From the NCBI RefSeq assembly GCF_004300825.1, contig NZ_CP036250.1:1-64000 (forward strand): a DNA stretch of 64,000 nt. Reading direction: 5' to 3'. The position numbers and the translations under genes were made by a program. This document shows, in pieces, positions 1 through 4,925 of the stretch. The notes beneath the pieces are model-generated. The model was not told the DNA's origin. It ran no database searches and worked only from the letters and a program-made list of their open reading frames with translations. The stretch comes from Egicoccus halophilus (GTDB lineage Bacteria; Actinomycetota; Nitriliruptoria; Nitriliruptorales; Nitriliruptoraceae). Position 1 is the stretch's first letter. Each line of letters begins with the position of its first letter.

Positions 1-906
1 CCACACGTCGGCGGGCACGACCCCGAGCGCCGTCAGCAACGCCACCGTCAGCGCCGCCACCCCTCGGGTCGCGCCGTCGGTGGCCTTGACCGCGAACCCG
101 CGCGGCGAGCCGTCCGCTGCCTGCCACCCGACCCCGTAGACACCCTCGGCACCGACCTTCGCCACCACGCCGGCTCCCAGCAGCGCCGATTCGAGCCGGC
201 CCTCGCCACCGACCAGGCCGGGATGGGCGAACCCGGCCTCACGGACCGGCCGGTGGTCGTCGTCGACGGCGATCCGTCCGAACGCCCGCGCGAGTCCGGC
301 CAGCTCGACCGCCACCGCCGGCGCCCCGCACCCGTCGACCGCGACGGCCAGCAACGGACCGAGCCCGTCGGCGAGCCGCGCGAGCACGAGCCGTTGCAGC
401 GGCCCGTCCGGGTCGAGCAGTCCGGCCCGGTCGGTCCCCTGCTGCGCCCCGGCCAGGGCGAACAACGCGTGCTTGCCCGAACAGTTGTGCAGGATCCGGG
501 CCGGCGTGGCCCCGGGGTCCGCCTGCGGACTCGCCGGAGGGCACGTCAGCTGCTCGGGGGTGGTGCCCGAACGGTGGAGCAGGTCCCGGACCGCGTCGAC
601 GTGACGCGCCTCACCCCGGTGCGACGCCCACCCGACGGCGAGCTCCGGCGGGCTCGGCCGGCGGCTGTCGCCCAGCACCTCCAGACACGCGGTGGCCTGG
701 AGCGGCTTGGCGGCCGAACGCACGTAGGTGGGCAGGGACGGGTCCCCGACCGCCGCGAGCACCTCGCCGTCGGGGCCGGTCAGCACCGCGTGCCCGAGGT
801 GCACCGACTCGACCAGCTCGCGGCCGCTGCGCTCGTCGCGGCGGGTGACCTCCGCGAGCGGGACCCCGACCGTGGGGCCGGCGCCGGACGTGTGCGTGCC
901 CGTCAT
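1..906 (-). CDS. L-asparaginase II family protein, C-terminus cut by window edge
   Basis: Likely hydrolyses L-asparagine to aspartate and ammonia in the cytoplasm, in the actinobacterial and rhizobial asparaginase II family (unrelated to E. coli AnsB). The 302 residues in the window carry the family landmarks in order: RSAAKPLQA near residue 55, ASHRGEARH near 85, NCSGKHA near 135, VDGCGAP near 175, GAEGVYGVGW near 245 and FAVKATDG. The ATG at 904-906 overlaps the stop of the upstream RsiG-like gene as ATGA, so the two are probably translationally coupled. The C-terminus runs off the left edge and only the last few dozen residues should be missing. Family call is firm; substrate preference is not visible. 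Confidence 0.87.
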   Translation of the reverse strand, partial: MTGTHTSGAGPTVGVPLAEVTRRDERSGRELVESVHLGHAVLTGPDGEVLAAVGDPSLPTYVRSAAKPLQATACLEVLGDSRRPSPPELAVGWASHRGEARHVDAVRDLLHRSGTTPEQLTCPPASPQADPGATPARILHNCSGKHALFALAGAQQGTDRAGLLDPDGPLQRLVLARLADGLGPLLAVAVDGCGAPAVAVELAGLARAFGRIAVDDDHRPVREAGFAHPGLVGGEGRLESALLGAGVVAKVGAEGVYGVGWQAADGSPRGFAVKATDGATRGVAALTVALLTALGVVPADVW

Positions 907-1457
907 CGGTCGCCGAACAGGTCCCGCACGGCTGCGGACCCGTCCTTGTACCGGCGGGCGAGTTCGTCGCGGAGACGGTCGACGCGGTCGAACAGGCCAC
1001 GGCGGGCCGCCGACAGCTCGTGCTCGAGGGCGGCGAGCCGGTCGACCGCCGCGGACAGCTCCTCGGTGGGGCGACGCGACAGCTCCGCGAGGAACCCCTC
1101 GTCGACGGCCGCGTCCACCTCGTCGGCGTACGCCTCGGCCTCGGCCGGGACCCGCAGGCGCGTGGCCCGCGCCCGCATCGGGTCCGCCGGAGGCTGGTCG
1201 GTCGCCAGGATCGCCGGCAGCCGGGCGAGCACGTCGCTCGCCCCGGCGTCGGCCACCTCGGCGTCCCCGCGGCTGCGACGTTCGAGCTCGTCGCGCAGGA
1301 TGTCGAGCCGCCCCTGCGCGATCCGTCGCGCGTAGGAGACCGCTTCCTCCTCCGCCTCGCAGGTCGCGCGGGCGGTGCGGACCTCAGCGGTCGGCCACTC
1401 GGCGAGCCCGGCGAGGTACTCCTCGTCGAGCAGGCGCTGCAGCTGGTCTCGTCCCAC
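903..1457 (-). CDS. RsiG-like c-di-GMP-binding anti-sigma factor homologue
   Basis: A 184-residue, charged, almost wholly helical protein. Near residue 45 it has a perfect E(X)3S(X)2R(X)3Q(X)3D motif (from EEAVSYARR through QGRLD), the c-di-GMP signature defined in Streptomyces RsiG, which holds the sporulation/motility sigma factor WhiG inactive. A second copy near residue 155 (EHELSAARR through FDRVD) keeps E, S, R and D but has F in place of Q. Two motifs on two helices is the RsiG antiparallel hairpin layout. The GTG start at 1455-1457 follows a GGAGAAGGG ribosome site; the stop overlaps the asparaginase start. No sigma gene is in the window, so the partner is unknown. Motifs are seen; function is inferred. 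Confidence 0.72.
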   Translation of the reverse strand: MGRDQLQRLLDEEYLAGLAEWPTAEVRTARATCEAEEEAVSYARRIAQGRLDILRDELERRSRGDAEVADAGASDVLARLPAILATDQPPADPMRARATRLRVPAEAEAYADEVDAAVDEGFLAELSRRPTEELSAAVDRLAALEHELSAARRGLFDRVDRLRDELARRYKDGSAAVRDLFGDR

Positions 1458-1507: not shown

Positions 1508-2062
1508 TCAGACCGGGTAGCGGCGCGTCTCCACCGGGCCGTCGAAGCGCTCGCGCGACTCGGCGATGATCTCGATGGCGGCCTCCCGGTCCTTCCAGCC
1601 CCGCACCTCGACCAGCTTCTGCTCGAGGTCCTTGTAGATCTCGAAGAAGTGGGCGATCTCGTCGAGCAGGTGCTGGGGCACGTCGGCGAGGTCGCGCAGG
1701 TCCTGCCACCGCGGGTCGTGGTCGGCGACGGCGAGGATCTTCTCGTCGGGGCCCTTGTCGTCGCTCATGTCGAGCATCCCGAGCACCCGGGCGTGGATCG
1801 TGCAGCCGGGGAAGGTCGGCTCCCCGAGGATGCACACCACGTCGAGGTGGTCGCCGTCCAGTGCCAGCGTCTCGGGGATGAACCCGTAGTCGCCCGGGTA
1901 GCGCACCGCCGTGTACAGCATCCGGTCGAGGATGAAGGTCTCGCGTTCGAAGTCCCACTCGTACTTGTTGCGGGACCCCATGGGCACCTCGACGAAGAAC
2001 TCGATCGTTCCGTGGTCCGTGCCGTTGTCGGTGTCCGTGCCGTTGTCGGTGCCGTTGTCCAC
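1508..2062 (-). CDS. ppa: inorganic pyrophosphatase, family I
   Basis: Hydrolyses cytosolic pyrophosphate to two phosphates, pulling biosynthetic reactions forward. The 184 residues include the family I core: IEFFVEVPMGSRNKYEWD, LDRMLYTAVRYPGDYGFIPET and the metal-binding DGDHLDVVCILGEPTFPG. The GTG start at 2060-2062 is chosen because AGGAG lies about 10 bases upstream and the alternative ATG is inside the conserved core. The N-terminus holds an odd run of four DNGT/DHGT repeats encoded by short GGCACCGACAAC-like direct repeats; it looks like a slippage tract outside the fold. A membrane H+-pyrophosphatase lies 0.8 kb away, so the cell has both ways of clearing PPi. Confidence 0.93.
   Translation of the reverse strand: MDNGTDNGTDTDNGTDHGTIEFFVEVPMGSRNKYEWDFERETFILDRMLYTAVRYPGDYGFIPETLALDGDHLDVVCILGEPTFPGCTIHARVLGMLDMSDDKGPDEKILAVADHDPRWQDLRDLADVPQHLLDEIAHFFEIYKDLEQKLVEVRGWKDREAAIEIIAESRERFDGPVETRRYPV

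Positions 2063-2900: not shown

Positions 2901-4925
<2,025 letters not shown>

Follow-up and report, generated by a model that had tools for sequence, protein, structure and literature searches.

The window analysed here covers the first 64,000 nucleotides of the contig NZ_CP036250.1 of Egicoccus halophilus, whose genome consists of a single contig of 3.98 Mb; NCBI places the family Nitriliruptoraceae, to which this species belongs, within Nitriliruptoria, a poorly studied class. Near the start of the window, a reading frame of 184 codons is open from a GTG start (Table 1) and, judged by its sequence, is rsiG, encoding a Nitriliruptoria RsiG of the twin-motif type. RsiG is known as a c-di-GMP-sensing brake that restrains the sigma factor WhiG. 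The protein matched the Pfam model PF22802 in two stretches (E 8.1e-24, 83.5 bits, cut-off 27 bits), and no RsiG model in the NCBIfam library matched it. The best solved chain was Streptomyces venezuelae RsiG (6pfj_T, E 9e-17), aligned over residues 23-181, in which F156 stands opposite the Gln of the second motif. Because of the Pfam match and this alignment, homology to RsiG is favoured over a chance motif. A structure model calculated from this protein together with 35 relatives (mean pLDDT 87.4) placed the motifs on two long antiparallel helices, and only three Foldseek hits fell below E 0.001, all of them S. venezuelae RsiG chains of 6pfv (TM 0.66-0.76). Motif 1 (EEAVSYARRIAQGRLD) has the key residues E37, S41, R44, Q48 and D52, and motif 2 (EHELSAARRGLFDRVD) has E145, S149, R152, F156 and D160, thus retaining four of the five contact residues with Phe at the Q/H position. 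The preliminary description had proposed an RsiG-type anti-sigma factor with one exact motif and one Gln-to-Phe motif on two long helices, and the profile, structural and sequence data bear this out.

Table 1. Features of the rsiG locus (window positions) and the gene of the putative partner sigma factor (position in the genome contig, C1)
Feature	Position	Strand	Basis
rsiG, 184 aa, predicted twin-motif c-di-GMP-dependent anti-sigma factor	903..1457	(-)	PF22802, 6pfj_T, predicted model and Foldseek
First long helix, residues 23-62	1272..1391	(-)	Predicted model
Motif 1, residues 37-52, exact E(X)3S(X)2R(X)3Q(X)3D	1302..1349	(-)	Sequence
Second long helix, residues 131-172	942..1067	(-)	Predicted model
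Motif 2, residues 145-160, E..S..R..F..D	978..1025	(-)	Sequence
TTC codon of Phe156, Gln position of motif 2	990..992	(-)	Sequence; lineage-wide
Asparaginase II	1..906	(-)	PF06089, E 2.7e-68; runs over contig start
WhiG equivalog, one in genome	C1:3183536-3184312		NF004935, 375.2 bits, cut-off 343

The stop codon of rsiG and the start codon of the asparaginase II gene share four bases (ATGA, 903-906), and the asparaginase frame extends across the contig junction. What had been called a fusion by overlap is therefore an overlap of two separate genes. The locus had also been described as lying outside a Streptomyces-like context, with rsiG next to asparaginase II instead of a sigma gene, and the view of a non-Streptomyces-like context is not supported. 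On the same strand, asparaginase II immediately follows rsiG at 38 of 49 loci from relatives and at 36 of the 80 named loci, with 24/54 for Streptomycetaceae and 3/9 for Pseudonocardiaceae, and several of the loci without it have just ~1.2 kb of flank. In Streptomyces noursei, the neighbour was confirmed by Pfam as asparaginase II. A WhiG-like gene (E ≤ 1e-20) was present in none of 163 rsiG loci. By gene order, the asparaginase context is an old actinobacterial arrangement, and therefore no link between asparaginase and the switch need be assumed. Upstream of rsiG lies a minus-strand gene (1508..2062) that we take from its translation to encode a soluble inorganic pyrophosphatase, and many relatives carry a same-strand homologue there. 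The gene at 2901-4925 is, by eye, presumably a membrane pyrophosphatase, which would bring soluble and membrane pyrophosphatase genes near each other beside rsiG. Autoregulation of rsiG as a general feature was rejected, since a WhiG-type promoter site (see below) was found upstream of the gene in one of 49 loci. At this sole locus (L030, G041:C199) the site lies 274 bases before the motif-1 codons and suggests a local autoregulation. Inspection of positions 13341-64000 by eye indicated transposase-like and integrase-like genes in an apparent aromatic-degradation region that also has genes resembling those for ring-hydroxylating dioxygenases and tripartite transporters.

The search of the genome for WhiG, the partner that the preliminary description presupposed, yielded one equivalog, whose gene is flanked by a tyrosine-recombinase gene and the rpsB-tsf region and lies away from rsiG. 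Its best solved match is S. venezuelae WhiG (6pfj_A, E 1.6e-88), of which residues K57, G61 and R62 contact c-di-GMP according to PMC8325347. Their counterparts K39, G43 and R44 are invariant among the 30 relatives examined. In the flagellar cluster, the FliA-like paralogue has G, N and Q at these three positions. Regarding the signal supply, 25 GGDEF matches were counted in the genome. The gene of the flagellar FliA-like sigma factor was observed in two near-identical copies (L061, 3544-4431, and L192, 18104-18991; 98.5% over 894 bases), which differ in ten residues and of which one is found at the flagellar cluster and the other 440 kb away.

The residue that takes the place of the motif-2 Gln was followed across lineages. 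In an alignment of 53 rows (the window RsiG, S. venezuelae RsiG and 51 frames of class relatives), this position is occupied by Phe in 24, Leu in 21, Met, Ile and Gln in two each and Pro in one, with a gap in one; S, R and D of motif 2 are retained in 52 rows, the remaining row being the gap, and E in 51. Of the 48 Nitriliruptoria rows in a tree built from 106 twin-motif proteins, 47 have a hydrophobic residue here and one has Gln, the other relative families being counted as Nitriliruptoria via the class code they share with the Nitriliruptoraceae relatives. All ten rows of a separate clade holding the named Ilumatobacteraceae/Acidimicrobiia loci have Phe, and Actinomycetes rows have Gln or His. 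At least five changes at this position are required by the tree, in which 39 of 103 inner branches are open (many weak) and the Nitriliruptoraceae grouping is starred. It includes 22 of the 80 named loci and leaves out 26 RsiG frames, namely single-motif proteins, fragments and frames with motifs outside the search pattern, among them the relic of genome G053 and the broken second copy of G060 described below. On the basis of these rows, Phe156 is a lineage trait that is class-wide in Nitriliruptoria and was acquired separately by the Acidimicrobiia clade, and the hydrophobic residue seems to have replaced Gln secondarily, in proteins that already had both motifs. The accessible text of PMC8325347 terms motif 2 strikingly conserved and gives a Gln-to-His exchange in motif 1 as the only exception among 130 twin-motif proteins; that part of its main text makes no mention of Nitriliruptoria or a motif-2 Phe. 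Given a hydrophobic residue in 47/48 rows, either the published motif is drawn too tightly or this half-site deviates. With the motif-2 Gln lost across the class, the published RsiG signature appears lineage-biased, and an exact-motif search would miss or doubt most RsiG proteins of Nitriliruptoria and of the Ilumatobacteraceae type.

At high c-di-GMP, RsiG of E. halophilus would take up an intercalated dimer of c-di-GMP between the long helices and, thus armed, would keep WhiG from RNA polymerase, whereas a falling c-di-GMP level would free the sigma factor. The stacking Gln of motif 2 is replaced by Phe here and by Leu, Met or Ile in sister families, and a hydrophobic side chain would be expected to pack on the guanine. 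Since the other four contact residues of motif 2 are retained, we expect the switch to be functional, perhaps with altered affinity. Alternatively, Phe156 may have disabled the second half-site, leaving an RsiG that is constitutive and c-di-GMP-independent, acts through a single site or binds WhiG weakly. This would agree with the published rating of motif 2 as conserved and with the solved complex, in which its Gln stacks on guanine (PMC8325347), and neither Phe nor Leu is capable of hydrogen-bonding. However, the contact residues of a dead half-site ought to drift, yet E, S, R and D are almost invariant and variation is confined to the Gln position, and the c-di-GMP contacts of WhiG are kept as well. 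Moreover, in genome G053, which has lost WhiG and PilT, motif 1 of the RsiG-like frame does not align and the motif-2 position holds Pro. A disabled half-site is therefore considered improbable. The RsiG relic of G053 (L057, 4966-6039), a genome without WhiG and PilT, scored 22.8 bits against the cut-off of 27; motif 1 was not found in it.

The distribution of the switch was compared with that of pili and flagella in 61 genomes, of which 50 had RsiG, 47 WhiG, 49 PilT and 26 flagellin. Among the 33 good genomes (≥ 90% complete, ≤ 5% contaminated), WhiG and PilT were both present in 27 and both absent in six, a concordance of 33/33, and RsiG was concordant with them in 32, the exception being G053 with its relic. 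In genomes of lower quality, WhiG was absent from G020, G023 and G031, RsiG from G006 and PilT from G023 and G057, with a partial PilT in G058; all of these are incomplete assemblies. Given that the genomes are related, these co-occurrences and the pilus-cluster counts below are not independent observations.

In the type IV pilus cluster of E. halophilus (C1:2424464-2439434, L188), a sequence CTCAAG-N14/15-GCCGAC was identified upstream of pilA, pilM and a minor-pilin-like gene, two of the three sites having a spacer of 14 bases instead of 15. The -10 part of the TCAAG/GCCGA pattern agrees with the published flagellar/WhiG consensus (TAAA, GCCGATAA); an actinobacterial FliA promoter consensus was not found in the accessible parts of the literature searched. 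Because the pattern was derived from these three sites, counting it in the same genome would be circular, and the pilus clusters of relatives serve as the independent test. Twenty such clusters on long contigs were taken from 48 PilT-positive relatives. In their 353,198 bases, TCAAG-N15-GCCGA occurred 28 times, compared with 0 to 5 occurrences for other spacings from N10 to N21, and none of 300 permuted patterns came up to 28 (mean 0.73, maximum 20). With spacers of 13-17, there were 30 matches, of which 27 were intergenic; at least one intergenic match was present in 15 of the 20 clusters and absent in five. Gene starts and intergenic status were taken from our own codon-usage script, not from a published gene finder. 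The sites precede genes for pilins, PilM, ATPases, Roadblock-like proteins and excisionase-type regulators. The genome of E. halophilus overall is not enriched (CTCAAG-N13-17-GCCGA, 29 matches versus 32 with the pattern reversed), and the case for WhiG-type promoters is based on the pilus clusters. Further intergenic WhiG-type sites in this genome lie upstream of a GGDEF-EAL gene (L219) and an FlgN-like/flgK operon (L203). The textbook flagellar promoter (TAAA-N15-GCCGATAA, ≤ 2 mismatches) was uninformative in the own genome, with 12 matches versus 9 for the reversed control, and exact TAAA-N14-16-GCCGAT occurred 0 times in it. The genome-wide count of CTCAAG-N15-GCCGAY in 61 genomes exceeded that of the reversed control only slightly and, on visual inspection, did not distinguish genomes with WhiG from those without; it was not used.

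Two further features of the pilus clusters were observed. Small excisionase-type helix-turn-helix genes (L227, 8708-8923; L229, 12153-12401; L230, 10041-10250; L237, 9446-9655) are each preceded by a WhiG-type site and are weakly BldC-like (27.8 bits against 77). Genes for a Roadblock/LC7 protein and a small GTPase at the cluster start (L188, 16443-17435; L230, 3168-3764) recall, in our opinion, the MglAB polarity module.

Judging from promoters and co-occurrence, released WhiG would transcribe the type IV pilus cluster and probably also the GGDEF-EAL gene and one flagellar operon, and its target is probably type IV pili rather than spores. We consider it likely that a c-di-GMP-dependent twin-motif RsiG restrains WhiG and that the released sigma factor drives the pilus cluster. 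It could be argued that RsiG and WhiG chiefly control flagella, as FlgM and FliA do elsewhere, with the pilus link being secondary. Flagellin was found in RsiG-positive genomes only (26/26), FlgM had no match over the cut-off in the E. halophilus genome, and one WhiG-type site lies before the FlgN-like/flgK genes. However, flagellin is missing in 35 of the 61 genomes, many of which retain both RsiG and WhiG; a separate FliA-like sigma factor that lacks the c-di-GMP contacts is encoded in the flagellar cluster; and the sites persist in pilus clusters of flagellin-negative genomes. Primary control of flagella thus appears improbable, and pilus control by RsiG-WhiG is preferred. The flagellar sigma factor, instead of WhiG, might use these promoters, which the one flagellar match would favour, but five of the eight flagellin-negative clusters analysed keep an intergenic match.

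The protein family and its mechanism are already known, and we infer the mechanism in E. halophilus from sequence. Its RsiG resembles the twin-motif monomeric anti-WhiG factor of S. venezuelae (6PFJ, 6PFV) in length, in the two antiparallel helices with both motifs, in WhiG being encoded elsewhere and in the downstream asparaginase II of many Streptomycetaceae, but differs in the motif-2 Phe and in the target, which is probably type IV pili instead of sporulation. In Rubrobacter radiotolerans, RsiG (7LQ2-7LQ4) has one motif per chain and forms a homodimer, in contrast to the two motifs in one chain here, and published evidence points to type IV pilus and DGC/PDE targets; the output would be the same in E. 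halophilus, with type IV pili and a GGDEF-EAL gene behind WhiG-type promoters. The twin-motif RsiG of the Acidimicrobiia (Ilumatobacteraceae type) shares the motif-2 Phe but falls into a separate clade, and asparaginase was not found downstream in four named Acidimicrobiia/Ilumatobacteraceae loci. FlgM likewise acts as anti-sigma factor on a sigma factor of the FliA/WhiG family, but is unrelated to RsiG. Published work on RsiG evolution associates the single-motif form with type IV pili (Rubrobacter) and the twin-motif form with sporulation (Streptomyces). Pilus control here would carry what is published for Rubrobacter over to the twin-motif form and to a second class; if true, gene duplication and target change can be separated, and the pili may be the more ancient target. 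In the literature searched, no earlier description was found of a class-wide altered motif 2 or of a pilus output of a twin-motif RsiG.

The start of PilB of E. halophilus matches the MshE-related c-di-GMP-binding model NF053729 (48.6 bits, cut-off 38) and the Pfam MshEN domain. Because PilB carries this MshE-type domain, c-di-GMP may promote pilus assembly while blocking transcription. We tentatively hypothesize that in Nitriliruptoria c-di-GMP acts in both ways, blocking pilus transcription via RsiG-WhiG and promoting assembly via PilB, and that the hydrophobic motif-2 residue, which would have arisen independently in Acidimicrobiia, shifts the c-di-GMP threshold of the transcriptional arm.

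The preliminary description had further seen in this RsiG a possible intermediate between single-motif homodimeric and twin-motif monomeric forms, which is very improbable because, although motif 2 matches the consensus less well than motif 1, the protein has the full twin-motif architecture (full length, complete second helix, four of five motif-2 contacts), is nested in the twin-motif clade, and carries a substitution derived within at least two separate twin-motif clades. Three other loci stood out during the comparison. The 174-aa protein of L329 (G159:C2, 3710-4231; family f45) has two His-type motifs 85 residues apart and forms the longest branch of the tree; two other f45 members examined are single-motif proteins, and it is perhaps an independent twin-motif duplication. 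At L058 (G060:C8, 5345-6020 and 4134-4886), the intact rsiG is accompanied ~0.5 kb upstream by a further RsiG-like copy, which looks broken because its motifs 1 and 2 are in different frames. The RsiG of L144, from a contig labelled Candidatus Melainabacteria, falls among Pseudonocardiaceae rows of the tree, and this contig is probably mislabelled or contaminating.
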